NCBI GenBank assembly: GCA_003313425.1 | Contig: NHZP01000093.1 | Coordinates: 27,680 to 91,679, forward strand | Reading direction: 5' to 3' | Source of the DNA: Pseudopyrenochaeta lycopersici | Taxonomy: Eukaryota; Ascomycota; Dothideomycetes; Pleosporales; Pseudopyrenochaetaceae | Length of the DNA stretch: 64,000 nucleotides | Shown here: piece after piece, positions 3,701-64,000 of the stretch | Numbering within the stretch: position 1 is the stretch's first letter | Layout: each line of letters opens with the position of its first letter | Notes under the pieces: model-generated | What the model was told of the DNA's origin: nothing | The model's input: only the letters and a program-made list of their open reading frames with translations | Database searches by the model: none | Position numbers and translations under genes: made by a program

Positions 3701-5207
3701 TATATTGCGACCTTCCTGTTTATTAGGTATCGTTCAACGGGAACACTGTAAAATGCCTTATTAACACAGGTTCGCAAATAAACCTCTTAAGATTAAGTGC
3801 GGCACGAGCCTTAAGTATTGTCTATAAGGCTATAGAGTAACGCCCTAGGCAGATAAATAAGATTATAAGTGTAACGGGAGATACTAATGCCTTTATTAGC
3901 ACGGCTTAGGACGTCCTAGTTAAAGTAAGGGAGGTTATTATAAGGACGCACTTCTAAATAATAGCTAATCTAACGAGGTTAGCTATCTTTAGTAATCCCT
4001 AGTGTTCTACAGTAAGGTTAGCTATCTAGTATAACGTGTATAGTTGGGTTACGTGTTAAATAATCTCTGAGGATAGAACAAGGAACGCAGTCTTCCTAGC
4101 ATTAGATCTAACGCCCTTTCACCCAAGTATAGTAGTAGTAGATTCTAATAACTCAGAAAACTAGATGCGAGCGCACAGATAGGGGAAGTGCGTTCGCATA
4201 CTAACACTGACACCCCAGAAAATAAGGATATTAGCGATATCGCTCGAGCTAAGTATTACTAGGAAGTCTATCTTATTAACGATAAGTTAGATTTTAGAGA
4301 CTTTTCGCACTTGTTTACTATACGAGATAGAAGCAAGTTATAAGCACGAAAGGGCTATACTGCGTTATAACTTATCTTGTTAAACGCGACAGCTAGTCTA
4401 GAAGTAAACCTTAAAAGTATTATGTGCGAACTAAACCGCTAAACTTAGAGCCAGCGAAGACGGTAGTTGTAAGTTAATATAATATATAAGAAGGTAGTAG
4501 ATAAAGTAAGGCTAATTAATAAGCCGCGCCCCCTAGAACTAATAGAATTTAGAAGGGAAGACTAGCTAGAAATCGCAGTTAAGAACTAGTTGCTTCGCTT
4601 AAGCCTAAAGGGACCTAGCCTAGGACCTTCTAATTATCTCTTTAAACAATAATACGCAGATTTTCTATAAGAGTCTCACCTCACTTCTGAACGAATAAAT
4701 TAACTAAAGCTTAGATCCCTGCGGGCCTAAGAAAAGCAGTTAATACTAGATATGTTAATAAATTAAGAAGTAGCAATAGCCTTTACCTTTACTGAATTAG
4801 GAAGGATTAGCGAAGATGTGTGCCCACTATATAAGATAAAGACGATACCTTATAAAGTATAGCAGGTTAAGTCTTTTCCTATACTAAGAGAGATTAAGGA
4901 AGAGGTAGTAGCAATATTTTAAGAAAGAATTAACTAAGGAACCCTTAAATAGTGTAATAGTTAGTATAGGAACCCGTGGTTCCTAGTTACTAAGAAAGAT
5001 AAGAAGTACTAGCTTATTAACAACGCGGTTTATATAAATAAGGTTTTAATACGGGATGCGAATCTCCTACTAACAGCTAACGAATTCTCAGAATAATTTA
5101 CTAGATGTAAGATCCTCTCTCTTATAGATCTGTTTTTAGGATATAATTAGATTACACTTTACCCTAACAGCAGAGACATAACTGTATTCTAGACGCTAAT
5201 TAGGTTA

Positions 5208-5330
5208 TGTTGGTGGGCAGCAGGCAGGAGGAACTAGGTTGATTCCTATCAAATGAGACACAAGGGAACTATATACCCTGTGGATGCTTATATAACAGAG
5301 CACGTGAGGAGCTAACCGTGTTGGCTAACA
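5208..5330 (-). repeat. copia 3' LTR (123 bp)
   Basis: Nearly identical to 10531-10653 and 43596-43718. It lies beside the polypurine tract, so it is the 3' LTR of the minus-strand element. Confidence 0.92.
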
Positions 5331-5463
5331 CACCCCCCCAGCTTGAGTGAATGAAGAGCAACGAAAGCTGTAAATGAAGGTCCTTAAGCATCTGCCTCTA
5401 CTGTAGTTGGTAGTACCACCCCCCCAGGTCCTGCAGACTGAGAGCAGTACTCTCTGATTCCTC

Positions 5464-8400
5464 TTAAATCCTTGATAGGTCACTTAGTCCTAGCTGGCGT
5501 ACGAAGTCAGCGTGCTTCTGTTAACTAAGGATCTTTGTAAGGCTGTCAGCTGGCATCTCTGTAGTAGCCTTCTAGTCTACCTGCAGTCTGCCTTCTGCTA
5601 CCTCCTGACGTAACCAATGATGATGTACGTCCACATGCTTCAGCTTCGTCTGAAGCTTGTTAACTGCCTTTGTTACAATTAAGACAGTCTGCTGGTTATT
5701 ACACTACAGTGCTAGTGTAAACTTAGGGTTAAATTAAATAGCTTAAAAGAAGCGTTGCTACTATTCTATCTCTAATCCTGCAAGGGATAGAGATAGTAGC
5801 TTAGCCTTAGTAGTCGATTTTGTGACTAATCGTTAGACTGTTGCCTTCCAGTCGATAGGCAGTCTATATAGTTTAAAGATGTAGCCTTAAGAGCTTCAGC
5901 GAGTTTTAGGCTTATCTGCGAAGGCCGCATCTGATGCACCATAAAAGAGAGGTTCTTAGCCTAGCTCCTACTAAGCTGGTGATATAATGCTAGTTATGCT
6001 GTGCTGGATGTCCCCTGACGCTCGAATAGCTAGGTGCTTTATGCCTATTAGGTATCTCCACACATAGTTGGCAGCGTGCAGGTGCTTTTGCCCTGGATTC
6101 TGTAGGTGGCGTGTAAGGATTAAGTGCGCTCTCGCGACGTCTGGTCGCGTTGAGGTTAAGATATACGCTAGTAATCTAACTAGCTGCTAATACCTTTGTG
6201 TTTAAGCAGCACTTAAATCCTCTGTTAAAGGTAGGAGGACGTTGTCCCTTAGTAGCACATCTGGGTATCTTATATTTCCCTTAAGATTAAATTTCGCTGC
6301 GATCTTATTAATAAATAAGTCCTGTGCTAGGTAGATTAATTAAGTAAGCTTCTCGCGGATTACACAGATGCTAAAGAACTACTTCAGCTCGCCTAGCTTA
6401 CGGATCTCGTACGTTCTAAGCATCTGTTGCTTAAACGTCTAGTAGTAGCTTATATTAAGCGGATGGACGAGGACGACGATATCGTCTACATAGAAAAAGA
6501 CGATCAGACAGTTGTTCGTGTATAGGCACGGTGCTCCTAGCACAGGCCTCAACCTAAGCTTCTTTAAGGTTAATAAGAGCTCCTAGTACTACAGCAGTAG
6601 TGCTTCCTTAAGGCTATAGAGCGCTCGCTAAAGCTTAAGAAGCTCGCTAAACTTATCTGTGAACCCTTTAGGCGTACAATAGTATATCTTACGTAGTAGT
6701 TAAGCGTTAAGAAAGGCGTTTAGGGCGTTAAACTGAAACATCTTTAGGTTAAATACTGCTGCTAGTGCTATAAGAGATCGAAAGATCTTAATAGCTAACG
6801 TTGCAGTATACGTCTCACCCTATGCCTCTTGCAGGTCTCCTCGTACGTATATACGCGCCTTAAACTTATATAAGTACCTGTCTTTGTTAAACTTGTATAA
6901 GAACACCTATATTAGGGGTAGAACCTCAGCATCTGCTGTTGTTGCAGTAACCTCTATACGCTTAAAGTAATCTTTTAACTAGCAGCTGTTAAGCTCTGCT
7001 TGTTCTGCCTCTCTAAACTTAGCACTGAATGGATAATCCTTCACTTCCTTCTATCGCTTTGGCGGCTCTGGCAGTTAGTCACGATGTAGCCTTGACCTAG
7101 GCATCTCACCTGCGAGCTTCAAAGGAGCTGTTAGATTCAATGCTACTGCGAATGCTCTGTAGTATGTAGCTAGGGCCTAGTTAGCTAGCCTCCTAGCTCT
7201 CTTCCCTTCTACAATGTTGCTGCTACTTCTGACAGCAGGATCAGCTATCTTTGGTGCATTATTCTGCTGACGATCTGGTACATAGTTGTCTGTATTACTC
7301 CATCCTCTAGGCCACTTAGATAGTAGCTTTCGTGGTCGGCCTCGCCTGCCTGTTGCAGCTGGCCTAAGTGGTCCATCTGGCCTACTTGGTCCATCTGGTC
7401 TACTTGGTCCATCTGGTCTACTTGTGACTGTAGACGTGTCATCCTCATGATGTGTCTGCAGCTTATCAAGCAGCTGTTCTTGAACCTGTTCCTCAGTGCC
7501 TTAATCTTCAGCACTAACTTGTTCTACTAGCTCTGTAGCTTAGTCTAGTTCTCTATTATCGCCTGCCTCCTATTAAGGTAGTGCAGTACTACAATCTAAT
7601 AGTTCTAGTGTTAGTAGAAAGCCCCAGTCTTTATAGAACTCTGCTACTGTGTTGTTTTCAGCTATCTCTGTAGAACGAGCTGTCTTATCGTTAAGCTGAT
7701 GCCTCTGGTTCTGTAGTATCTCTTAATTAGCCTCTATCTCCTGTACCTAAGGTATGTTAAGATAGTTAATATCTTCTTGTATAATAGCTTCTCTCTTAGC
7801 TTTCTTGTAGTTGTTAAAAAGGCTATTCTTCTAAAATATCACGTCTCTTATACGTATTATCTGGCTCTTCTTTAGCAGCTAGATGCGGAAGATATTCGTT
7901 AAGTTGTACCTTATAAGGTATCCTATAAATGTACGAGACTTAAGCTTATCTACTTTCTTTAGCTTCTTATTTAGGATATAGGCTTTGCAGCCTATCTGTA
8001 AGAAGTAGGTAACTAAAGGCTGCCTGCCATAGACTAGCTTATATGGCGTCTTCCATGCGATTGACTTAGTAGGCGTGACATTAACAATTCGAGCTGCTGT
8101 AACTACTAGCTTATTTAACAGCGACTTTAGCAGTCCTGCCTTAATTCGAAGTAATCTTACTCTTATTATAATTACGTTCCCTGCTTGCTCTGCAGCTCTT
8201 AGCTGTTTAGGCGTGTTAGGAGCTTAAAGCTTAACCTTAAGGCTAGCCTGCCTTACGATCTTATAGAGCTGTAAGCCGTACCCGTAATTACTGTTAACCT
8301 TAAGGATAACAACAGTATGTCCATACTAGCGTTTAATCTTGTTTATTAGCGCTCGCAACGCTGCTATTACGACAGGTAGTGTTTTATTAGTAAGAGTTGT

Positions 8401-48384: not shown

Positions 48385-50286
48385 ACAGAAATTTTGTTCC
48401 TAATAGGCTGTACCCTGCACGAAGGCACAGGTTTCTACATCCGGCGACTTCTTCTCCATAGTAAGCGCGAATAGGTATTACTTTAGAGATAATCTGGGAT
48501 GGGTGACAGAACGATTAGGTACAGATCGAGATATATGAAGGTCGCAAAGTAGATGAATTCAGGCTTACACCAGCCTAATGGGTATTTACGAATTTCATAA
48601 GGTTCCAATGGCGACGTCAAAAATAGATCGTTAGAGTCGAGGGCGTTGGAGGTGCTAAGCTACGTAGATACCTGGTGTGACTTAAAGCGTGCATGACCTC
48701 TCTAGTAGCATTGGCTTGTTTGCAATAAACTTTGCGCAAAAAGACTAAACAAACGGGCAGCAAATAATACGGCTATGGGCTTGCCAAGTTCTTTTGGGCA
48801 TGACTGCGCCTCCACGAGAGGGTCAGAGAAAGCGGAGCGGAGAAGATGCGAGCAAACCAGCTGTTAAAGGGCGCAAGATCACACTCCAGGAACGCGCGGA
48901 AGCGCCTAGAAAAGCGATTCAAAAGCAGAAGCAGGCTTCAAATGATCGGCCTTTGGCAGCAAATTCATCTAAAGAGGTTCGTGGACCAGATCGCAGTAGA
49001 TCACACAAGGATGGGCAGGTTTTAAGAGTGTCAAGGACCGGGCGCAAAATTTCTCCTCCACGGCGATTTTTAGACTAAATAAGTAAACAGATTCTCTAAG
49101 TACTATTTTTATACGGCTAAAAAGTTCTATATAAATTAGTTACCAGCGTTTCGCTTGTCCGTGCCCATTTTAAAATCCGGCGTTTGATTTTTGATGGGTG
49201 GTCAAAATAACTCAGGGATACAAAGTCTGGCTCGCCCGTGGGGTACGTTATATAGTAACTTAGGCTAGTTTAGGCTAACTGTTTTGCACTATGTCCGTGC
49301 TCCGTAATTTGGCTTATTTCTTTTCCTCTCTTTCCCGTGCCTTTTGCGCCTTTGCCTTTGCTTTCTCCTCCTTCTCTCGCGCCTGCTGGATCCTCCTTCC
49401 TCCGCGATAGACTTTTGTAGTGGGCTTTCAATCTCCAACTCGTCTGCTTACTGTGCGGCGCATAGCCTCGCCATGGATGTCTGCTAATTTCGTCCTTCCA
49501 AGGTCGTCATGCAGCTACACATGATCCTAACTCTAAAATAATTCCAACGTCCCTACATTTGTGGTGCAGACATTACACCAGCAACTCATCGTCTTCTGAT
49601 TTAAGAATTCGATGGGTGGCAAGTCTCTTAAGTCTCAGCTGGCGGGCATTGCCACCGCCGATGGCGTACGGCTGGCTGCGCTCTCACTAAAACCCATGAT
49701 CCGGATTGGTTGGAAGCGGCATAATCCGTTAATCACCAGCCCCAAGCTGAATGAGATCGCTCAATCATTCATGAGACTTCAGGTTCCTTGCTCACTTATT
49801 CTTAGCCTGCGAAGAATTGAACTGTCAAGGAATTTCGGTTCCACATACAGGTCCTGTAGAGTAAGATAGCCTTTAAAGCCCTTGCTCATGCGATTTCTAT
49901 TACATATCCGGGCTGTAAATAGCGTTGCTTACCCTATATTTGATATCAGGACAGCTACCTGCCTTGACTATATCTCTACAGCACGACTCTAGGAGGCAGG
50001 CCTTATGAACACCCAGAACTATGCGGTCTCCCCCTTTTTTCTCTTGCCCCGTGCGTTCGCTAATCTTACGAAACAGAAGGAGAACACCTAGAAGAATGCG
50101 TCCGCCCCCTTTATTCTGCAACTAAACCTTTCTTAGCTAGTTCTCTAACCTAGATTAGCTAGTACCTACGCGTAACGCGTTAGAGCATAAATCGCGTTCC
50201 TAGACGCGTAACTACGCGTTCTATATAATAGAATAAATAAGAGTAAAAGCGAGAGGGAACAAAAGAGAGAAAAAGAAAGAGTATCT
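48385..50286. other. Intergenic, transposon-like fragments and unsupported small ORFs
   Basis: 48800-49078 (+) is an open basic frame (MTAPPREGQRKRSGEDASKP) with no recognised family. 49320-49410 on the - strand reads YRGGRRIQQAREKEEKAKAK, similar to the charged C-terminal helix of pogo transposases. 49612-49869 is an open frame without support. From 50130 the sequence is short RIP-like AT-rich DNA. Confidence 0.35.
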
Positions 50287-50792
50287 ATGATGTTTACCTT
50301 TCTCCCATCCTACAGCGTCCTTGTCTGCCGCCAGCATACCTGCGCTGTCTACGGCCTAGATCAGCACCTAGAGCGCCAGCATAGTATACCTGCAACGCAG
50401 CGGAGAGAGCTGCTCGCAGCCTACTAAGGCCTTAACTTAAACCCGCCAGCGGAGGTCCTTCTCCCTCAACTAAACAGCCCGCCTATCGCGGAGCTAGGTT
50501 CCCCACAGGACGCATTTCTCTGCTGTAATTACGTTGCTAGCAGTAGTAGCAGCAGTAGTAGTAGTAGCACTACTACTAGTAAGCGCTGCGGCTTTCTAAG
50601 CATAAGCCGTAAGTGTATACAGAAACATATAAACGAGCAGCACGGTATAAAGCTTACACGATGGTCCTCTGCCTCTGCGACCTCGTACCAGGAGCACGCT
50701 ACGCAGCTATGGAGGCCAGTTAAGGTGCAGACTTTTTTCCGCGAACGGCGCTACGTCCGGTACTTTGTAGTACAGGCAGAGGTACAGGAGTA

Positions 50793-50925
50793 GGCACAGG
50801 AGCAGGCACAGGAGCAGGCACAGGAGCAGGCACAGGAGCAGGCACAGGAGCAGGCACAGGAGCAGGCACAGGAGCAGGCACAGGAGCAGGCACAGGAGCA
50901 GGCACAGGAGCAGGCACAGGAGCAG
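50793..50925 (+). repeat. 12-bp tandem repeat (GGCACAGGAGCA) in TLH pseudogene
   Basis: About eleven near-perfect units encode an AQEQ repeat in the TLH frame. The first unit has a CAG-to-TAG change. Confidence 0.9.
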
Positions 50926-53111
50926 ACGCAGGATCAGCATTCGGGGCAGCAACAACAGCAGAGAAAGCGGCTAGACCCTAAGGAGAGGCTCACTAGCTTG
51001 TTAGCTGAGTGGGAAACTATTGAGCGTCAGGATAACAAGGCAATCAGCCAAATCGCTGAAGAGGCCTTAGCCTACGACCGCACTGGCTGGTTAAAACGGA
51101 CGCAATGGGAGCAGCACCTTAAAGCCTACCCAGACTGGAAGCAGCTCGCCTACGCTGTGCGACCGCCAGGCGACGACGAGCCAGTATTACAATGTACAGT
51201 ACGCCGCGTTGAAGAGGTAGTTGAGCAGGCTGTCGAGGGGCTCAGCTCGCTATCAATTGAGACGTTGCGCTGGCTACGTAGTGCAACACCACAGCAGTCT
51301 GATTGTCGCCCTCTAGGTCGTATGCAGAAGATAGAAAGCCAACGTCGCGCAGCACGGCTCTGGGCACGACTTATTTGCTACTGCCTGCGGTTAATTGCTG
51401 CCGGAGAGAAAGAGAAGGAGGAGGAAGACGCAGAGGACGGATTCCAGCATATCGTCCGCCTATTCCCCTGGCACGGAGGGCAGAAGCAGGAAGCAGTGAA
51501 GCTCTGGAGACTACTGACTGCTGCCGACGGAAGTAGTCACGTAGCTGAACAGCAGAAGGCTATCCTAAGCCTGTCTAAGGCACTGTTCTGCCAGGAGGTA
51601 TACTGTCAGCCGTTTCATAGCGGTATAATCCACTTCCTCGCCGCGCTAGCTATTAACCCAGATACGAACTGACTACGCGACGCCTCGCAGTTCTCAACGC
51701 TTCTTAGCTCAATCGTCTACTGCGTCCGCGTCCTAGCAGCTGAAGCTTTCCTCCCATCTACCCAGCGCGCAGAGCAGGGTGCTGCTAAGACAGCTGCTCT
51801 ACTACATCAGCGAGCGCGCTATCTTGTCGATGGCTCGCATAGCCCGATGAGCATTATGATTAGTCTACTTGCCTACGCTAAGCATATCTCTCTACGTACC
51901 CTAGGCCGTATTGCAGGCAGTATGTGGTGGTCTCCTAACCGCCAGACGTTCTTCCTTAAAGGCCGGCCTATTAAGCTAGAGCGCTTTCGCGCTATGGCAC
52001 AAGGACTAGTAGCGAAGGCAGAGCAGATCCTTTGGGGGGAACTGCTCTGGGTAGAGGAGCAGGCACAGCGACGCTCTACTAACCTAGCAGCTATCCAAGA
52101 CAATATGACAACAGCACAGCGAGCAGGCTGCTTCTTAACACTAGCTCAGCTTAAAGAGGGCAGGGACTGGGTTCTCGCGCGGCTCGCGAGCGTGCCAGCT
52201 GCGCAGCGACTATATACATTAAGAGGGGAGCAGGAAGGCGAGGAGGGCAATTAAGGCAGCTAAGTCTACCAAGCTAAGGCGTCTATACTGTGGCATAAGC
52301 AACAGGTGCAGCGATATCTCCAGCGCGTGGGACGCTTCCTTGAGCTACTCTGTCTCGCGGTCTATATCACAGGCGGGCAGCCAGCGCGCGGGCCTGAGTT
52401 GCTGTCAGTTCGGTGGCGTAATGGGGTGCTCCAGGATCGCAACCTCTACGTGATTGATGGGCAGGTTACGCTAGTCACCCGCTACCACAAGACGCAGGCG
52501 TAGTGGGATCGACCTAAGGTAGTTCCGCGCTTCCTGCCAGAGGCGGTAGGGCAGTTGATCGCAGCGTACCTGCTCTACGTACGGCCTCTGCGGGCGATGC
52601 TGCTAGCTAGCTAAGGTAAAGTAGCTTTAGCATCGATGAACGACTACCTCTGGGCAGACAAGGATAAGCTCTGGGATATAGATAGGCTTACGCGTGCGTT
52701 AGCGGTCGAGTTAGTAGAGCTTCTAGGCACGCGGCTGACGATCCAGGAGTACCGGCACGTAGCTGTAGGTATTGGGCGCGAGGTAGTAGGACAGCGGTTT
52801 GCAGCAGGCTATTGTTAGGAGAAAAAGAGTCGCGGTAGTCACTGGGCGTTTGCGCCTGAGGTAGACGGTGGCAGTGACGGCGAGGAGGACGGAGAGGATC
52901 CGCTTGAGCTATAGAGCGGGCGTTTTACGACGACAGGACTAGTAGCCTATGCTGTACAGGCTGATATAGTACAGGGGCTAAGTGTTTGTTCAATTGACGT
53001 CTTCCGCACGTTAAGCTATAGCTGGCACGCCTTCCTTGGCTTCCTTCTACATACAGAGGCGAGTAGAAAGAGGAAGTAGGAGCAGAGCAGCCTAAGCGAT
53101 AGAGACGAGCC

Positions 53112-53290
53112 GCAGAAGAGGCAGCAGACGCAGCAGTTCCAGCAGACGCAGCAGTTCCAGCAGACGCAGCAGTTCCAGCAGACGCAGCAGTTCCAGCAGA
53201 CGCAGCAGATGCAGCAGTTCCAGCAATTCCAGCAATTCCAGCAGTTTGAGCAGTTTCAGCAGTTTCAGCAGTTCCAGCAGTGGCAACGGT
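53112..53290 (+). repeat. Gln-rich 18-bp tandem repeat at the helicase deletion junction
   Basis: Units of CAGCAGTTCCAGCAGACG grade into CAGCAATTC and CAGTTTGAG types. The repeat replaces the expected Walker A region and carries the change from one reading frame to another. Confidence 0.85.
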
Positions 53291-53969
53291 GGCAACTGAG
53301 GCAGAATTAAAGGCAGTAGTTAATAAGTCGCATGTTGTTATTACAGCAGACTCGTGGCGGACAAAGCTGCACAGGCTAAAGGATCTTCGGCTGCTACCGT
53401 GCCAGCAGGTACTACTTACAGCTACGTTGCCGCCGTCGCAGGAGAGGCAGCTACAGGAGGTAATGTTAATGCGCGGAGCAACAATTATCCGCGCAGAGAC
53501 AACGCAGCGACGTAGGACGCAGTACACAGTAGTTCGCTGCAGGCGTAAGGTAGAGCTACAGGAGACGGCTGTAGAGCTCGCGCGCAGGCTGATAGACGAG
53601 GCAAGGTTACTTAGTAGCGCGCAGGTAGCAGAGGTGGCAGTAGGACGAGAGGTAGCAAGAGCGAAAGGGGTCGTGTACTGTCGCAGTAAGGCGCTGTGTG
53701 AGCAGCTAGCAAGGCGGCTAGGCTGCGTAGCGTACCACGCAGGCATGCCCGAGCGCGCAGAGGTGCTAGAGAGGTGGAGGCAGTCAGGAGGGCTAATCAC
53801 ATGCACGTCAGCGCTTAGAGTAGGAGTAGATATTGCGCAGGTGCTCTTCACGCTGCATGTAGAGAGGCCGTGGGGGATAGTTGATTTCGTGCAGGAGAGC
53901 GGGCGAGCGCGAGGGGCAGGCAAGGCAGTGATTCTAGTCGTGCAAGGACAGCAGTGGCAGAAGGCTGAG

Positions 53970-54200
53970 GTAGAGGCAGAGGCAGAGGCAGAGGCAGAGG
54001 CAGAGGCAGAGGCAGAGGCAGAGGCAGAGGCAGAGGCAGAGGCAGAGGCAGAGGCAGAGGCAGAGGCAGAGGCAGAGGCAGAGGCAGAGGCAGAGGCAGA
54101 GGCAGAGGCAGAGGCAGAGGCAGAGGCAGAGGCAGAGGCAGAGGCTGAGGCTGAGGCAGAGGCTGAGGCTGAGGCTGAGGCAGAGGCAGAGGCTGAGGAG
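53970..54200 (+). repeat. GAGGCA hexanucleotide array (about 38 units) encoding Glu-Ala
   Basis: A near-perfect GAGGCA array with some GAGGCT units near the end, in frame after helicase motif VI. The opposite strand reads as long Ser-Ala or Leu-Cys frames, which are artefacts. Confidence 0.93.
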
Positions 54201-54619
54201 CAGCAACCGATGAACGATAGCGAGGTGATGGACGCGTTTATCAGCACAGTAGGCTGTCGAAGAGCAGTAATGAGTTAGTATATGGACGGCAGGCGATTAT
54301 CTTGCAGACAGCTACAGGCAAGAGCAGATACAGGAGTAGGCGGCGCAGCAGACAGGGCAGCAGAAGGCGTAGAGATAGCGTTCTGCGATAACTGTGAGGA
54401 GCAGGAGTATAGAGGGCAGAAACAGTAGCAGGACGAGGAGCAGGTACAGGCGAGGCAGGAGCAGGTAGTACGGGCGAAGCTCAATGAGCTATCGCAGACA
54501 ACGTGTCCATACTGCTAGGGTATGTTGCATAAAGTATTCAGGAGGGAGGAGGGCAAGGTAGCAGTACAGCAGGAGGAAGAGGAGGAGGAGTATAAGGCAG
54601 GGCAGCAAGAGGAGGAAGA

Positions 54620-54790
54620 GGCGGAGCAACAGACAGAGCAGCAAGCTGAGCGGCAGGCCGAGCAGCAGACTGAGCTGCAGACTGAGCAGCAGGCCGAGCA
54701 GGCCGAGCAGCAAGCTAAGCAGCAGGCCGAGCAGCAGGCCAAGCAGCAGGCCAAGCAGCAGGCCGAGCAGCAGGCCGAGCAGGAGCTCAA
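54620..54790 (+). repeat. Gln/Glu-rich 12-bp tandem repeat in TLH pseudogene C-terminus
   Basis: Units like GAGCAGCAGGCC and AAGCAGCAGGCC encode (E/K)QQA. The frame matches the upstream helicase frame. Confidence 0.88.
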
Positions 54791-55229
54791 GCAGAGAGAG
54801 TGCAAGGCGGCAGTACATAGTCTGTGGCAGTGTCTGCGGCTTAGGCAGGAGGGGTTACAGGATATAGAGGAGCTGCGGAGCAGGGTAAGGTATAAAAAGG
54901 AGGTTCAAACGTGCTAGAAGTGTGGGATAATAGAGTATCTCTGCGGCAGAACGCAGAGTAGTAAGCAGAGCAGTAAGCAGAGCAGTAAGTAGAGTAGTAG
55001 GCAGGCAGATTGCGCATAGCCGAACGTAGCGATAGCAGTGCTATATAGGCTACAAGTAGCAGTAGAGGCAAAAGCAAAGCTAGAGGTAGGTAGAGGAATT
55101 TAAGATAGTAGGCTTTGGGAGGTAGGATATCGTGGGCAGGTAGATAGTAAGGAGGAGCTAGGTAGATAGATAGGAGAGGTATATCAAGATAGGCGGATTT
55201 TTAAGCATATTACTAGTAAATAAGTAGCT

Positions 55230-57180
55230 AGTATTATATATAGTATCTTAGAAGAGGAAAGAAAGAAATAGATATAATTTATATAGTATTTATAAAAGAA
55301 TAGTTAACTAGTTTAAATAAGAAAAAAGAAGAAGAAAGTAAAGTAATTTAATATAAGATATTAGAAAGAGAGTAAATAATAGATAGCTGTATTTAATAAG
55401 AAAAAGAAGAAAGAGAGTAAAGTAATTTAATATAAGATATTAGAAAGAAAGTTAAGAATAGCTAGCTACTTTAAATAATATATAGAATAGCTATAATTAG
55501 GTTAATTTTTAGAAAAATTAAGTTTATATATAAGTTTTAGTAGAAAATACTATATAAATAATAACAGTAAGAAGCTATAGTATATAAAACTATTCTAGAA
55601 ATATAGTAGTATAACTTTTATAGTAGTACAACTTTTCTAGTAGTATAATAAAAAGTTATTAAAATATAATAGTTAAAAGATAAAAAGAAACGAAGAAGAA
55701 AAGTATTAGACTTAATAATTAATAATAGTATAGTAAAGAATAGTTTTTAAAGTAAAGTAAATAAAATAGTAGTAAAGAAGAATATAGTAAGTAAAGTTAT
55801 AGTAAGTAAAGTAGAAGTAAGTAAAGTAGAAGATAAAATAGTAGTATATAAGATAGTAGGAAGTAAGATAGTAGAAAATAAGATAGTAAGTTAAATTATA
55901 GCTAAAGTAGTAGTAAGTAAAAGAGTAGATAATATAGTAGTAGGTAATATAGTAGATAAAGTAGTAGATAGGAAAGTAGTAGGTAAAGTTGTTAATAAGT
56001 AAGTAGGTAAAATAAAAGTAGATAAAGTAGTAGTAAAAGAAGTAAAAGTAAATAATAGGTTAGGAGTATTAATAGGAAAAAAGAAGAGAAAAGTAAAATA
56101 ATTAAAATATAGTATAAGGACAAGTAAATAATAAGTAATTATAATTAAAAGAAAGAGGTTAAAAAGAGTAAAGTAATAAAAGATAAGTTAAAAAGTGCAA
56201 AGTAATAAAATAGAGGTTAAAGAAGAATAGATAGTAAGTAAGTAGTGTTACTTAGAAAAAAAAAAGATAGTATAATAATATAAAAGAGTATAGTATATAG
56301 AGTTATTATAAGTAATAGAGTAGATAGTATAGTAGAAGTAATATTATAAAAGTTTAGAATTTAATAAGAATAAAATAGTAGGAATAGTTTTAAAGTTAAT
56401 AAGAATAATAAAAGTAAGTAGTAAGTAGTTAAAGACTAAGTAGTAAATAGTATTATAAAAAAAATAAATGTAAAGTAATATAATATAGTAGAGAAGAATA
56501 GTAAGTTATAAGTAATAGAGTAGGTAGTATAGTAGAAGTAGTAAAATTAAGATTTAGCATTTTAAGAAAATAGGACAGTAGAAATAGTTTTAAATTTATT
56601 AAGAAATATTATTTAAAGTTAGTATAAGTAGATAGTAGTACGTAGAAAGTAGTTTTATGTTATTAAGGTTAAAAAAAGGAAAGTAATAGAATATAGTATA
56701 AGAGTAGAAAGATAGTAGGTATATAGTTTATAGTTTTAGTTAGTTAAAAAAGAGATTAGTAATTTAATATAGTATAGAAGGAGATAGATAGTAGAGTTTT
56801 CGTAGGTAGTTTTATAGAGTTAAGAGTTAAGAAAACAAAGTAATAGTATAAAAGTAATAGTATAGAAGTAATAGTATAAAAGTAATAGTATAGAAGTAGA
56901 TAAATAGTAAGGTTTTCGTAAGTAGTATTATAGAGAAAAGAAAAAGAAGAGTAAAGTAATTATATAAAGTATTAAGGGAGATAAATAGTAGAGATTTGGT
57001 ATCTAGTTTTATAGGAGTAAGAAAGAAGAGAGTAAAGTAATATAATATAGTATAGAGAGAGAAAGATAGTAGGGATTCGCTAACCGGTTTTATAGAGGTA
57101 AGAAAGAGGAGAGTGAAGCGATAGGATATAGTATAGAGGGCGAAAGATAGTAGGGATTTGCTAACCGCTTCTAACAGCAA
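55230..57180. repeat. Degenerate purine-rich minisatellite, RIP-like
   Basis: C is very scarce on the + strand, and the surviving C is mostly followed by T, so CA has been lost as TA. Toward the right end a unit of about 81 bp is clear (starts at about 56936, 57017 and 57098, containing AGTAAAGTAAT...ATAGTAGGGATT). The unit becomes less recognisable to the left. No gene is seen. Confidence 0.7.
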
Positions 57181-57188
57181 AGACCGAA

Positions 57189-57280
57189 GGGATTAAGGTC
57201 GTTTTTGGGGTTAATCCCCTGAAAAACCCTAGCAGTTGGGGCCTTAATCCCTAAGGTCGATAATATCAATGGGATTAAGG
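57189..57280. promoter_or_regulatory. Inverted and direct GGGATTAAGG motifs upstream of the intact helicase gene
   Basis: GGGATTAAGG occurs at 57189-57198 and 57271-57280, with its complement CCTTAATCCC at 57242-57251. The first two can pair as a hairpin around GGGGTTAATCCCC. It lies 370-460 bp before the ATG, on the edge of the minisatellite. A TATA-like TATAGAGTATATAT is at 57617-57630. A regulatory role is inference. Confidence 0.4.
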
Positions 57281-57650
57281 TCTGAACTTGCGTGGATTGC
57301 GCTGCAACTTCACAGTCTAATGCATCTAACTCCGTTGCGTTGATTGAACCAACTTTCATGACGATTGGACAAGTATGTCGTGAGATATTTAATGAAAAGT
57401 GTAATGGTTTTCGTGGTTGTTAGGGTAGGCCGTGCGCGTTTGAGTTGAGTAACAATGCCAAGATTAGGGTTTCGAGACACCATACAAAGTGCCCGGGGGA
57501 GAGTCCGACAGCGTGATAGACAAGGCATCACAAAAAGAAAGTTCATTGAAGTACAGTAATTTCCGTTAGAACGACCGCGAGGATTGCAACCATATAAGGA
57601 AGAGAAAGGGCAATTTTATAGAGTATATATTGTCTATGTAGATTAATACA

Positions 57651-60600
57651 ATGGAGCAGTTTACCAGCATTTTTGAGTATTTGCCAGCACAGCGCATCGC
57701 CGTATGCAAGAGCCACCAACAGGGTGTTATTAAATCCCAGTTGAAGACCCATTTAGACACCAAGCATCAGGAATATGTTCGCAGGACACGTTGGGAAATC
57801 GTCGAGGTAGTACAGGCAGAGGCATCATTGCAACAATGGGCCATGACCCAAGACGAGGTTGTTTACCCCAGCCCAGAGTCCAGCCCGTTGCCCCATTTGC
57901 CGGTGTACCACGACGGATTGCGTTGCCAGCAGTGCCCGTACGTTAATCGTAGCATCAAACGTATCCAAGAGCATTGTCGACAAGAGCATGGTTGGAAGGG
58001 GGACAGTCGGCCGAAGCCAGGGCGTCCGTCAGGCACGCGAACCATGTGGGCAACCGTGTCATGCCAAAAGTTCCAAAACACCAGTAAGATGGGCCGATTG
58101 TTTGAGGTCAGCGCAGCCACAGAGGCCCAGCACACAGGCGACGCGGACGTGGACGTAAGCCGGGCGATTGAGGAGTCGTTGGTCCAGGCCACAGCCCAGT
58201 TAGAGGAGTTGGAAGAGAAGAAGAATTCCACCATCCAAGCCAACGACGACCGGTACGATTTTAGCAAGTGGTTGGATCGAGCGGGTTGGGCCCGACATTT
58301 GAAAGGGTTGAAGCGTGATTGGTTGTTAACAATGGCGACAAAGCCCACGACCAAGGAGCGCGCATTGTACGAGGTATGTTGGGCAGCACGCATGGTCATG
58401 TGGCGGGCACAGCAGGCGTCCAAGGCAAGTGTGGTCGGGTTACCAGCCATGATGTACATCAATCGGCGAGAGTTTGGTGGCAAGGGCAACGAGAAGCCGT
58501 TCAATGCGCAGCAAACAGGAAAAACAATGGTCAGGTACAGCAATTGGTGGTTGGAGATTATTTCATACATTTGGCGGACCCACGAGTTGCCCGTTGTCAG
58601 CAGCCGCAACGACGACGTGGAGGTGGAAGGAAAGAGACCGCCGTATCACATCAGTGGCAGGCAGGATATGTGGTTGCAAAAGATCAAGATGATCGTAGGG
58701 CGGGACCAGGAGGAGGATTGGTTTGAGGAGATGGAGTCGGACGGCGAGGGCGACGAGGAGAGGTTGGACGAGACGCAGGAGGAGGAATTAGAGGGCCATG
58801 TGTTGCAGTTCATGTTAGCATTGTTGGACCATTTTTTGGGCGACAGTGAGTACACGAGCGCGTTGATCAGTGGTATGGCCGTGTTGGGGATCAGCGCCGA
58901 GGACGGTTGGTTGAGCCCGTTGGTATACACGCCCAAGCAGGCCGCCATCGTCAACACATCACGCATGTTGGTGTTGTACAAGTCGACCCAGTTGCGGCAG
59001 CAAGAAGTAGGCAAGTTAATGGCCGAGGGTTGGGGAGCAGAAGATGCAAAAGCCATGGCACCAAGCCATTTCCATTTGGTGCAGGAGATGGCCCAGCGGT
59101 TTATGACGTTGACCGATTACAATGGCAAGCCAACGCCCATTGATTATATACAGCGGTTGAAGGCATTTGGATTCCACATCCGGTACAACACGAACGCAGA
59201 GGGAGTGGTCGATTGGAACGGCGATACGTTGTTGTACCGTAACATCCGGTTCAGCATGCCGCAAATGCGGTCGATGATCCACGGCACAATGGCCAGCACA
59301 CGACAACAGATTGTAAGGGATTTAATGTTGTTGCAGATAGACGACGAGGGCGCGATAGCCAAAGACACAACGGCGTTGCCAGTCATCGATTGGGCAAGGT
59401 TGGTCGACAATGCAGCCGAGCAGCGGGTTGGGTGGAGTTTCATGGAAGACCCGCGCAACAAAAATGCCACAAGCGTAGATGATCCCAAGCAGTGGTTAGC
59501 GCAGCGGGTACAGAAGGAAAAGGCCATACAAAATAGTTTTATCGACGTTGAGGTGACACGGGCGGCGTTACCCAGAGGTGGAAGCGTGGTGTGGTTACGG
59601 GACCGCATACAGGCATACGGGCAAGCCATGAAAGAAGCCCGACACAAGTTGGCAGCGTTAGTCCATATGACAGGAGGTGCACCAGCGCGGGCGACGGAGT
59701 TGGTGACGGTCAAATACAAAAATAGCGCGAATGGTGACAGTCGAGGAATTTTTATCGAAGATGGGTTGGTAGTGTTTGTTACCAAATATCACAAGAATAT
59801 CGGACAGTCAGGCAACGGTAAAGTAATCCACCGATATTTACCACGCGAAGTAGGCGAATTAGTCGTTTATTATTTGTGGTTCGCCAGCCCGTTTTGGCAC
59901 CAGATCGAGGGGGCGGTTCGTGGCAAGGCGGTAGACACGAGCGCATATATGTGGGAGCCCCAGCCGGAGCAGGGTTGGCAGAAACCCGAGAGGAAAAGAA
60001 GACGCGGTGCCGAGAGCGTCCAGTGCCGCAGCAAGAGCGCAAAGAGAGACAGCAGATGCCGCAGCGTCGGTCGAGCGAGCCAGGATTCGTGGGAAGAGGG
60101 GGCCGAGTCGGGTGACGATACAGAGCAACCAGACGACCAGCAGCGCCCCATAGAGTTGTGGAACACCAACCGGGTCAAGCACGCGATGCAGAAAGCATCG
60201 TTGCCGCATATGGGTGTCAAGTTAAATGTGCAGGCGTGGAGACATGGCACCAAGGCGATGTACCGTCGATACATTCACAACCGGGCCGCGGTCAAGGCAT
60301 TTTTAGACGCCGACGAGGACAGTGACGGTTCAGAAAACGAAGATGAGTTTTTCGACATCCAGACAGGTCACGGCAGCCGCATGGCCGGCGGCATATACGG
60401 ACGACCCGTCACGGAGGCCATGTTCAGCGTCGAGGCGAAGAGGGTCGGGTTACGTTTGGCCAGCATGGAGTGGCATGCGTTTTTGCAGATTCCGTCCACC
60501 ATGTCGATGAAACCGCGGAAAGGCACGCAGGCAGCAGCAGCCCGTAAAGAAGCAGTAGAGGAAGAATACCGTCGGTGGAAGATGATGCGGTTGGTGGACG

Positions 60601-62414
60601 TAGACGCCGAGTTGAAGAATTTGTTGGGGGACCAGGCCGAATTCCGCAGCGTCCAAAGGCCAGCCATCCAAGCGATTATGCAGCACAAGAGCCCAGTAGT
60701 AGCCATCATGGGCACAGGGGCCGGCAAGAGCGTGTTGTTCATGTTGCCAGCGTCGGTGTCCACCGGGGTGACGATCGTGATTGTTCCGTTGGTTGCATTG
60801 CGGTTCGACATGAAAGAGCGGTGCGAGCAGTTGGGCATTGTCAGTGCAGAATGGAACAGTCGACGGCCGCACGAGTCCGCGCAAGTCATGTTTGTAACGC
60901 CCGAGGCAGCGGTGGGCGAGATGTTTGGCGATTACATCACCCGACAGCGGTTGATAGGACGTTTGGATCGGATTGTGGTGGACGAGTGTCATGCCGTATT
61001 AGATTCGTTGGACGGTTTCCGTAGCCGGATGTTGAAGTTGAGAAGTTTGGTTCGAGTGGAGACACAGATGGTGTATTTAACGGCGACATTGCGGCCCAGC
61101 GAAGAGCAGCAGTTCATCGACGTGATGGGATTACCGTCCAAGAGGCAGTGCCAGTGGTTCCGCGGACAGACGACGCGTAAGAACATCCGATATCGAGTAC
61201 ATGCGTACGACACAGCCGACGAGCAGCAAGCAGTCCAGCATTTGGTGGAGGATTTGAAGAATAAGTACCCGTTGCCCGGCCAGGTTGTTGTGTATTGCGG
61301 TTTAGTGAAGCGAACAAAAGACATGGCCAAGAAGTTAGGGGCCGTTTGTTACCATCGGGAAGTTGGCAGTATCGAAGAGAAGAAGGAGATTGTCAAACAA
61401 TTAACCAGTGGACAACAGCAGGTGTTCACAGCGACCAACGCGTTAGGGTTAGGGATCGATGCGCCGACGATCCGCGCGGTAGTTCACATAGGCACAATCC
61501 GCAAGATGCGGCATTACGCACAAGAAAGTGGCCGGGCAGGGCGTGATGGTAAGCCGAGTGAGGCAATCATCATGCGAGGGTATCGGAAAACACGACAAGG
61601 GAGGGTGTATGGTAAGTTTGGCAAGGACGTGGAGGCAGAGATGCAGGATTTGATTGCGGGAGAGGGGTGTATGCGGAAGGTGATTGACCAGGCGATGGAT
61701 GGGGCGGATGGAGTGGATGGGGTGGACACGCGGTGGGAGTGCGAGGAGGATGAGGAGCGGTGTCAACGTTGCGCGAGGCCAGGGGTAGGGAGGGCGCAGG
61801 AAGAGGAGTGGGTGACAGCAGAAAAGATGGAGTTTGAGCAGCAGGGCAGGGGGCGGAAATGGTTGGCGGAGCAAGAGATGGAGCGGCAGTGCAGAGAAGC
61901 AGCAGAGGTGGAGGCATTGGTGGAGTTGATGGAGGAGTGGCGGGTAGGGTGTCAGTTGTGCCGGGCGTGGGGGGAAGATGGAAGGGGACATGAGTTGGAG
62001 GATTGCGTTCACGAGCAGGCGGAGAACGCGCGAGAAGGGTGCGAGAGGTTCCAGAAGGATTGGATTTATGTTAAGTTTTCATGTTGTTATGATTGTAAAT
62101 TGCCGCAGGCGTTATGCAGGAGTTTTGAGATGGATATCATGGATGGGGGGTACAGAAAAAAGGCAGGGAGAAGATGTCAGTACGAGGGCGTGTTGATGAA
62201 GACATTGGTAGTGGCGTTAATGCGGGAGGTGTTTAAGGTTCCGGAGTTTTTTCACGGGGCGATAAAAGAGGATGGGGTTGCGGGGGGGTTGGGGTTTGAG
62301 GAGGACGAGGAGGACGAGGAGGACGAGGACGAGGTTGTTGGGGGGACATTCCGGGCGATCGTGCAATGGGGAGCGGGAGGAAGCGATGGGGAGGGATTGA
62401 AGGGAACAAGTTGA
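57651..62414 (+). CDS. Telomere-linked RecQ-type DNA helicase (TLH), intact, 1587 aa
   Basis: One uninterrupted frame without introns. Residues 19-39 (CKSHQQ...HLDTKH) and 92-113 (CQQC...HCRQEH) form zinc-finger-like segments. Residues 650-920 form a conserved central domain (see finding on R680, H865, H907, Y916). Helicase: Walker A GTGAGKS 1021-1027, DECH 1111-1114, TAT 1144-1146, and motif VI QESGRAGRDG from 1291, all typical of ATP-dependent 3'-5' RecQ helicases. A Cys-rich zinc region follows, with an acidic tail near the end. Such genes lie next to telomeres in many fungi and are expressed when telomeres are disturbed. Codon use is unusual: Leu is TTG/TTA only and no codon or codon junction contains CT. 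It is the intact relative of 50287-55226 but clearly diverged. Confidence 0.92.
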   Translation: MEQFTSIFEYLPAQRIAVCKSHQQGVIKSQLKTHLDTKHQEYVRRTRWEIVEVVQAEASLQQWAMTQDEVVYPSPESSPLPHLPVYHDGLRCQQCPYVNRSIKRIQEHCRQEHGWKGDSRPKPGRPSGTRTMWATVSCQKFQNTSKMGRLFEVSAATEAQHTGDADVDVSRAIEESLVQATAQLEELEEKKNSTIQANDDRYDFSKWLDRAGWARHLKGLKRDWLLTMATKPTTKERALYEVCWAARMVMWRAQQASKASVVGLPAMMYINRREFGGKGNEKPFNAQQTGKTMVRYSNWWLEIISYIWRTHELPVVSSRNDDVEVEGKRPPYHISGRQDMWLQKIKMIVGRDQEEDWFEEMESDGEGDEERLDETQEEELEGHVLQFMLALLDHFLGDSEYTSALISGMAVLGISAEDGWLSPLVYTPKQAAIVNTSRMLVLYKSTQLRQQEVGKLMAEGWGAEDAKAMAPSHFHLVQEMAQRFMTLTDYNGKPTPIDYIQRLKAFGFHIRYNTNAEGVVDWNGDTLLYRNIRFSMPQMRSMIHGTMASTRQQIVRDLMLLQIDDEGAIAKDTTALPVIDWARLVDNAAEQRVGWSFMEDPRNKNATSVDDPKQWLAQRVQKEKAIQNSFIDVEVTRAALPRGGSVVWLRDRIQAYGQAMKEARHKLAALVHMTGGAPARATELVTVKYKNSANGDSRGIFIEDGLVVFVTKYHKNIGQSGNGKVIHRYLPREVGELVVYYLWFASPFWHQIEGAVRGKAVDTSAYMWEPQPEQGWQKPERKRRRGAESVQCRSKSAKRDSRCRSVGRASQDSWEEGAESGDDTEQPDDQQRPIELWNTNRVKHAMQKASLPHMGVKLNVQAWRHGTKAMYRRYIHNRAAVKAFLDADEDSDGSENEDEFFDIQTGHGSRMAGGIYGRPVTEAMFSVEAKRVGLRLASMEWHAFLQIPSTMSMKPRKGTQAAAARKEAVEEEYRRWKMMRLVDVDAELKNLLGDQAEFRSVQRPAIQAIMQHKSPVVAIMGTGAGKSVLFMLPASVSTGVTIVIVPLVALRFDMKERCEQLGIVSAEWNSRRPHESAQVMFVTPEAAVGEMFGDYITRQRLIGRLDRIVVDECHAVLDSLDGFRSRMLKLRSLVRVETQMVYLTATLRPSEEQQFIDVMGLPSKRQCQWFRGQTTRKNIRYRVHAYDTADEQQAVQHLVEDLKNKYPLPGQVVVYCGLVKRTKDMAKKLGAVCYHREVGSIEEKKEIVKQLTSGQQQVFTATNALGLGIDAPTIRAVVHIGTIRKMRHYAQESGRAGRDGKPSEAIIMRGYRKTRQGRVYGKFGKDVEAEMQDLIAGEGCMRKVIDQAMDGADGVDGVDTRWECEEDEERCQRCARPGVGRAQEEEWVTAEKMEFEQQGRGRKWLAEQEMERQCREAAEVEALVELMEEWRVGCQLCRAWGEDGRGHELEDCVHEQAENAREGCERFQKDWIYVKFSCCYDCKLPQALCRSFEMDIMDGGYRKKAGRRCQYEGVLMKTLVVALMREVFKVPEFFHGAIKEDGVAGGLGFEEDEEDEEDEDEVVGGTFRAIVQWGAGGSDGEGLKGTS

Positions 62415-64000
62415 GTTGGATTATTGGGAGGATTGTTGGGTGTTTGAAGGGTTAGGGTCACGTGAGTGGCATGAGACCCCAGTGGGATCCGGAGTGACAT
62501 TTTCAAAACAGTACAGTATAACGTAATAGAGGCAGTAGCAGTACAGGGTTTGTAAGGGTTAAGGAGTGTTTTTGATAGTTATTTGATAAGAGTTGGGGTT
62601 AATGCCCGTACAATAATCCCAGGGAAGACGTAAACACCCGTACAAGAATTTGCAGGGAGTAGAGGGAAGCCCGTACAAGGATTTAGGGGAGAAGGTAGAT
62701 GTTCGTACAAGGATTGCAGAGAGAAGTGGGATGCCCGTATAAGAATTTACAGGAGAAGTTGGACGTCCGTACAAGGATTGTATGGAGTAGTTAAATAAGG
62801 GAGGGGAGAGAGATTTGAAGAGTTGAATGAAGGAGGGAAAGAGATTTAAAGGAGAGGAGGGGAATGCCCGTATAAGAATCCAGGGGAGAGGTAACCCGTC
62901 CGGTGCAGAACGCGGAGCGTAACAGAGGGATGGGGGTTTGGGCCCGTAAGGTGTCATAAGAAGAAAGGAGGGGAAAGAGGGAGAGAAGGGTACCCGAACC
63001 GAAGGGCAGAGGAAACCCGTAGGGTGTAATAGAAGGGGAGGCGTAAAAGGTAGGGTAAGTTCCGGCCCCAGCAGGGGCGGAAGTTACGGGCAACAAAGCG
63101 ATATAAAAACAGGGTAAGTAAGGTAGGGTGGAGAGGGCAGCAAGGATGGAGGGCAAGAAAGGGTTGCAGAAGCAAGGTAAGAAGGTAGAGAGTGGCGGAC
63201 AGTAGGTAGACGTTAGTGCAGGTAGGAGGAGTTCCGGCGCCGTCAGGACGGAATTTGGAGTAGTAAGGAATAGTAAAGTTCCGTTCGGGCCGGAACCGAA
63301 ATCAGAAGGTAGCCCCGACCCGTTCAGTAGTATGTTGTAGCCGTAGAGAAGAGGCCCGTAGAGAAGACGAACAAGGCAGGTAGCCAGTTAGTGTAAGAGG
63401 AAAGGAGAAGAAGAGGGGAAACCGTCCGGTGTAGGAAAATGAAGGGTTAGGCGGTGAGCCCGTCCGTGCAGGAAAAGAAGCCGAACACAGCGGGTTGGTA
63501 AGGATATAAAAGTAGAAAGGAAGAGTTTGGATTATATTAGTAAAAGAAGGTTTAGGTTTTAAAGTAAGGCAGATTAGGAAAAAGTATAATGTTTTAATAA
63601 AGTAGATTGCAGGGGAAGAAGGCGAAGAAATGAGGATTAGGGTTTTAGAGGTAAAGAGAAGGTTAGAGTGGTAGGAAAGAGGTAAAGGGGAATGTTAAAA
63701 GCGAAAAAAAGGGAGAAGAGAGTTGTAGAGAAGAGAAAAGGGCGGTGAGAGTTGGGAGGACAGGTAAAGATGAAGTTAAAAAAGTTGTGAAAGGGAGGTA
63801 AGTAGAGAAAACAGGAGAAGGTAGAGAGAGTAGAGAAAGTAGAGTAGGAGAAAAGAGAAGAAGAGAAAGAAGAGAGAAGAGAAGATAAGATAAAAAGTAA
63901 AATAGAAGAAGGAAAGGGTAAAGTGGTAAAACGAGTTAGTTTGGTAAGAAAAGAAGAAAGGCAAAAAGGGTAAGAGTAAGTAGAAGAAAAGAGTAGTTTA
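62415..64000. repeat. Subtelomere-like degenerate repeats, no gene
   Basis: A G-rich, C-poor + strand. Degenerate units of about 40-50 bp with CCCGTACAAG(A/G)ATT recur at 62605-62880. Further on, CCCGTCCGGTGCAG and CCGTCCGGTGTAGG variants (62896, 63422, 63461) and CCGGCCCCAGCAGGGGCGG hairpin-like blocks occur. After 63540 C almost disappears. The open frames on the - strand are low-complexity and not credible. No TTAGGG array is present, so the chromosome end is not in the window. Confidence 0.6.

Follow-up and report, generated by a model that had tools for sequence, protein, structure and literature searches.

The window analysed here is a 64,000 nt stretch of the Pseudopyrenochaeta lycopersici genome (contig NHZP01000093.1, hereafter C93, positions 27,680–91,679), the right edge of which is the contig end. 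Towards this end lies a gene for a telomere-linked helicase (TLH), and the gene, together with its flanks, lacks the dinucleotide 5'-CT-3' on one strand. The features of the unit and its border are the following.

57003–57353, no strand: left border, ordinary DNA beyond the CT-free domain, with 17 CT and short motifs in inverted orientation (GGGATTAAGG / CCTTAATCCC)
57354–57633, plus strand: 5' flank, 0 CT in 280 bp (10.4 expected)
57634–57635, plus strand: lone CT shortly before the ATG
57651–62414, plus strand: TLH gene with OrsD, a middle region resembling tyrosine recombinases and topoisomerase IB (YR/TopIB), and DEAD plus Helicase_C; 1,587 codons, 0 CT
59613–60401, plus strand: probable YR/TopIB-like catalytic region, residues ~655–917 (R680, K715, R864, H907, Y916; motif assigned by analogy with the YR family)
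62415–63500, plus strand: 3' flank, 0 CT, with repeated CCCGTACAAG-type units
63501–64000, plus strand: start of a purine-rich tail, 1.8% C; its counterpart in the copy on contig C10 reaches TTAGGG

Loss of CT from one strand

The plus strand from 57635 to 64000 (6,366 bp) contains no CT, against 210 expected from base composition and 209.9 from local composition. AG on the same strand is not depleted (734 occurrences). The lone CT at 57634–57635 is the final one of the window and the only one between 57354 and the contig end. The void thus covers coding and non-coding DNA, on one strand only; the 3' flank has no CT despite 13% C and 18% T.

The coding sequence accommodates the void completely. 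Leucine is encoded by TTA (27) and TTG (76) and by no other codon, TCT, CCT, ACT and GCT are each absent, and within the 14 families of pyrimidine-ending codons tabulated, every codon that precedes a T ends in T (70/70). By class, CT was found at 0/103 CTR/TTR sites, 0/84 NCT/NCC sites and 0/70 NNC|T junctions. When the gene was reshuffled synonymously with matched GC content at third codon positions (n = 1,000), the reshuffled versions held 190 ± 10 CT with a minimum of 151, while the real gene has none. CTC and CTT are missing from the unit equally with CTA and CTG. The first-pass annotation of this DNA had proposed a strand-specific loss of CT over the same interval, obeyed by the gene and by its non-coding flank, and the counts bear it out on each of these points.

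The TLH gene and its product

The protein contains OrsD (residues 7–114, 8.7e-23), DEAD (1000–1151, 1.7e-17) and Helicase_C (1208–1300, 6.5e-12) according to Pfam. With its RecQ-like helicase domains, an OrsD N-terminus (which we take to be synonymous with DUF3505) and multiple copies placed at contig ends in constant orientation, the gene is a telomere-linked helicase that combines OrsD with a RecQ-like helicase. Among the best 120 of 189 homologues from a protein search are sequences from Parastagonospora, Paraphaeosphaeria, Pyrenophora, Bipolaris and Alternaria. Scans of viral contigs gave only five RecQ-type relatives and nothing that carried the YR-like region described below, and a scan of 385 genomes from the class of G001 gave a match in G001 alone.

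The last ~1.8 kb of the window contig (62190–64000) differs from the copy at the right end of C10 (L035) mostly by one-base changes in homopolymer length, and one such difference near 62367 shifts the C-terminal frame of the window gene. Stop-to-stop frames of the close copies measure 1604 aa in nine cases and 1607 in one; the copies on C83 and C156 share the 1590 of the window. The shorter form may be genuine or may result from an error.

The region between OrsD and the helicase (residues 561–970, window 59331–60560) is probably tyrosine-recombinase/topoisomerase-IB-like. Residues R680, K715, R864, H907 and Y916, which we take to be the YR catalytic set, are invariant in 20/20 aligned sequences; the histidine of HxxR shows no conservation in the consensus. 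In a second structural comparison of this region, rows 1–21 were all YR/TopIB structures. Foldseek returned no match to a YR fold at E ≤ 0.001, and Pfam gave nothing over the YR-like region even at E ≤ 5.

Close copies lie at chromosome ends

A search of the genome gave 34 matches, which correspond to ~21 close TLH copies; 15 of these are full-length or nearly so, with 97–100% protein identity. The copies are nearly identical except for repeat-induced point mutation (RIP, see below), as would be expected of ends that recopy one another. All eight copies for which orientation could be checked (C93, C10 left, C10 right, C23, C28, C83, C106, C156) point to the nearer contig end, although not all of these ends are telomeres. 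Hence, the CT-free strand is the TTAGGG strand wherever telomere repeats are visible.

DNA was examined for the window, the C156 gene, part of C28, the end of the right-hand C10 copy with the sequence downstream, two RIPped copies and a fragment on C62. In all of the unRIPped ones the TLH sequence is CT-free. The C156 gene (L121) has no CT and five substitutions relative to the window gene, and the 0.7-kb fragment on C62 (L027) is likewise CT-free. The truncated copy on C28 (L016) is free of AG, that is, of CT on the gene strand, over 3.8 kb, a run that starts just past 6228 and lasts until the stretch ends; the 6 kb separating it from the telomere show ordinary counts.

In the right-hand C10 copy, CT is absent for 5,280 bases downstream, up to a short TTAGGG array. 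This and the orientation of the copies support the link between the void and chromosome ends made in the first-pass annotation. The tail in L035 1450–5270 consists of 0.4% C, 40% G, 45% A and 15% T and is also nearly without AT (observed/expected 0.10). Most of its T residues come after G or T, which is also the pattern of TTAGGG and suggests descent of the tail from degenerate telomere repeats. DNA beyond the array has normal CT. This DNA (L035:5265–7296) is unrelated, the sequence at its start is repeated (CCTTTCACTAGAAAGTTGTCAAGTGG, twice), and it is possibly a telomere-inserted element.

A 33-base segment from the 5' flank occurs at 22 places in the genome, 19 of them identical and three with one difference that creates a CT. 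These three (C28:10831, C56:294630, C170:3308), where the other 19 read TT, belong to copies truncated at residue 1445.

A further subtelomeric family is found in window 53000–57170 and in L012, L014, L015, L022 and L026, in which AGGCAG-type repeats lead into a zone that is rich in purines and altered by RIP. This zone has ~1–2% C on the G strand and adjoins TTAGGG at C17 and C62. It was considered as a second CT-purged family and rejected, as the local observed/expected ratio of CT is at least 1 in 12/14 bins of window 50001–57000; L026 from 5001, with at least 1 in 6/9 scored bins (L012 and L014 were not scored), was rejected likewise. The C-poor zone at 50–57 kb is purine-rich, RIP-altered DNA, separate from the TLH void.

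RIP, assembly artefacts and position at the chromosome end

RIP is present in this family, in dead copies. L033 carries 465 substitutions relative to the intact gene, 458 of them C>T or G>A, and L034 carries 154, of which 152 are of these types, mainly at CpA/TpG and CpG. The 117 CTs of L033 include 102 derived from CC, and the 53 of L034 include 52. The remaining 15 and 1, respectively, are CTs already present in the reference (57001–62600), in the 5' border and at 57634 only. The CTs of the RIPped genes being derived from CC, their ancestors were CT-free in the gene; their presence also indicates that dead copies retain CT. Since RIP in L033 changed 0/15 CpT sites, and since the void affects one strand (CT 0, AG 734) with a CpA observed/expected ratio of 1.39 in the unit, RIP is rejected as its cause, as the earlier annotation had argued.

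An assembly or basecalling artefact is very unlikely, as copies on other contigs agree and a second source, described below, is also depleted. A general effect of chromosome ends was rejected too. CT is near normal in the first 6 kb of L016, L024, L028 and L030 (counted part) and in L127, where a telomere-adjacent TLH gene has about normal CT; telomere proximity alone is therefore insufficient for CT loss.

Paralogues and a second, graded case

CT is normal in two diverged paralogues. Paralogue L032, 48% identical and with an intact frame of 1,671 codons, has a CT observed/expected ratio of 1.01, and L122 (~35% identical) one of 1.23.

A contig filed in a bacterial metagenome-assembled genome (MAG), JAPYPR010000039.1 (L041), also holds TLH sequences and is presumably a fungal contaminant. 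It carries the 3' part of a TLH with normal CT (L041A), a gap of 100 N and a second TLH (L041B), 36% identical to that of the window. In L041B, 19 CT were observed against 100.8 expected at 2541–4900, 2 against 77.7 at 4901–7217 and 1 against 47.6 in the 3' flank, so that along the gene the ratio falls from 0.19 to 0.03. At the end of the contig C itself falls to 0. Upstream of L041B, the first 300 bp beyond the gap have 7 CT (observed/expected 0.54), and the loss begins near the 5' end of the gene in L041B as in the window unit. This graded case is a single contig. Since the CT-normal L032 is a nearer relative of the window family than L041B is, the loss either had more than one origin or was undone.

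The MAG, filed as Erythrobacter, contains several TLH contigs (L041, L126–L129), one with a terminal TTAGGG array, and is thus probably contaminated with fungal DNA. Coding CT in L126–L129 ranges from 0.63 to 1.68 of expectation (500-bp bins). The gene on L127 ends ~1.5 kb from the terminal array and has ratios of 0.63–1.00; the C-poor spacer that follows has 0.29–0.74 (300-bp bins with few counts) and no CT in its last 85 bp.

Mutation or selection

We favour a selection-like force, either avoidance of cleavage or biased conversion, that purges 5'-CT-3' from the sense strand of a chromosome-end copying unit, and give this reading a probability of roughly 40%. The principal alternative, possible though doubtful, is a strand-specific CpT>TpT mutator, in which deamination would act on the G strand when it is displaced or resected, damaged copies would be discarded and genes free of the target would remain.

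The L041B gene, in which CTs survive, allows the two to be compared. Compared with three TLHs of normal CT content (L041A, L126a, L032), the odds of CT versus the synonymous alternative over the 5' half of this gene were 0.06–0.12 for CTR:TTR, 0.05–0.11 for NCT:NCC (a class with one residual NCT) and 0.04–0.07 for NNC|T. CT loss is therefore similar where C>T is silent and where it is harmful, as in NCT codons. A mutator should have left CTs at harmful sites, but 18/21 residual coding CTs of L041B sit where C>T is silent. Protein scars are also few: of 33 derived residues in the window protein (counted at alignment positions with at least 80% agreement among the other 11 homologues), 2 are of the C>T type. 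A uniform, selection- or conversion-like force fits these observations better than a plain mutator. The 3' flank, moreover, also shows enrichment of CC (2.65, to which repeats contribute), and two dead copies have kept the CTs that RIP created. In the C-free tails, T is scarce in L035 (15%) but not in L041 (27%). A mutator acting on whole chromosome ends is further disfavoured by the about normal CT of the telomere-adjacent L127 gene and the normal CT of the DNA beside the truncated CT-free copy L016.

Several points speak for mutation. No dinucleotide of the window gene is as enriched as TT (observed/expected 1.67, versus 1.06 in the CT-normal L032), C content drops toward the telomere, and dependence on the 3' neighbour resembles RIP-type chemistry. 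If mutation is frequent and the population large, load could also remove NCT, so that the comparison of silent and harmful sites is not decisive. Conversion of C to T at CpT along a resected 3' end, as suggested in the first-pass annotation, was not established; the harmful-site CTs and V/I/F scars that it predicts in its plain form were not seen, though a high mutation rate plus load could mimic this outcome. The earlier interpretation thus stands for strand specificity, the fit of the coding sequence, the flank, the exclusion of RIP and the link to chromosome ends, but is not established for this mechanism and fits poorly for antisense splice acceptors (see below).

Alternatively, avoidance may operate at the level of RNA: the sense transcript, perhaps a readthrough resembling telomeric repeat-containing RNA, would be free of CU because this dinucleotide is a target of binding or cutting, or because a branch point that engages the spliceosome arises from CT. 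The CT-free strand is indeed the sense strand, and the domain begins near the 5' end of the gene in both cases and reaches the telomere repeats in C10. We consider this unlikely, as the 280 bp before 57634 are CT-free too and are in part probably untranscribed. The branch-point version is unsupported, the form CTNA not being clearly avoided (3/22 residual CTs vs 20/93).

That a single CT-poor founder was merely amplified would agree with the near identity of the copies, but 0 of ~210 would demand a directed process in the ancestor itself, and the distant L041B is depleted while the closer L032 is not; this makes a founder accident improbable. An antisense constraint, under which antisense RNA would avoid AG and hence splice acceptors, is very improbable. 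In its favour, zero CT on the sense strand necessarily means zero AG on the antisense strand; against it, we know of no antisense transcript, and GAG and AAG (sense CTC and CTT) are absent just like CAG and TAG, so that this idea of the first-pass annotation fits poorly.

A possible model for purging of CT

Under the favoured selection-like force, the copying unit would comprise the TLH 5' flank, the gene, its 3' flank and the purine-rich tail as far as the telomere repeats, and the purged strand would be at once the sense strand and the G-rich, 3'-ending telomere strand. CT may be a liability while this strand is single, whether displaced, resected or present as RNA, by acting as a signal for cleavage, nicking or designation as a repair recipient. 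CT-free copies would then survive, or serve as donors, during end-to-end recopying. The resulting force would grow toward the end and be blind to the meaning of codons. The unit's own YR/TopIB-like region is a candidate cutter, and any end-processing or RNA-cutting enzyme would also do.

In a bolder version, to which we give little weight, the TLH unit would be a selfish chromosome end: its helicase-recombinase would nick the exposed G strand at 5'-CT, CT-bearing ends would be degraded and recopied from CT-free ones, and the unit would spread, itself immune through the missing dinucleotide.

Comparison with known systems

The void suggests a hitherto undescribed force by which one strand is cleared of a single dinucleotide. 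Given its recurrence in a distant lineage, it should bring to light some process that works on a single strand at certain chromosome ends, be it a new cutter, a mutator or a conversion bias. The dead copies, the diverged paralogues and the graded case make these rivals separable by ordinary sequencing.

RIP shares with the void a C>T change in the context of the 3' neighbour, if the void is mutational, and is itself present in the dead TLH copies. It differs in acting mainly at CpA and CpG and on both strands, whereas the void affects CpT only, on one strand and in intact genes. Mammalian switch regions and the footprints of AID and APOBEC show strand-asymmetric loss of cytosine and displaced purine-rich strands, as in the TLH unit. 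Unlike the void, however, those losses are governed by the 5' neighbour and incomplete, and they do not clear coding sequence. Avoidance of target sites, as of restriction sites in phages or of ACA in RNA exposed to MazF, removes a short word regardless of coding, as here; the TLH void differs in that the word is a non-palindromic dinucleotide, missing from one strand. We know of no cutter for CT in the TLH unit.

Among papers listed by searches on strand asymmetry, CT dinucleotides, TLHs with dinucleotides and TLH/RecQ genes at subtelomeres, no title or opening of an abstract describes such a void, which does not show its absence from print. Telomere-associated families of Colletotrichum higginsianum combine a helicase with DUF3505 in constant orientation at the ends (PMC5576322), and TLH regions lie at chromosome ends in F. 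oxysporum (PMC12857005). As far as the available portions of these accounts go, the present unit resembles fungal TLHs in being a multi-copy subtelomeric RecQ-like helicase with DUF3505, the same orientation toward the telomere and nearby repeats. It differs in its one-strand dinucleotide void and its recombinase-like region, neither of which those portions mention. Fungal TLHs may fuse a recombinase-like region with a helicase, a combination that would bear on how chromosome ends are recopied.
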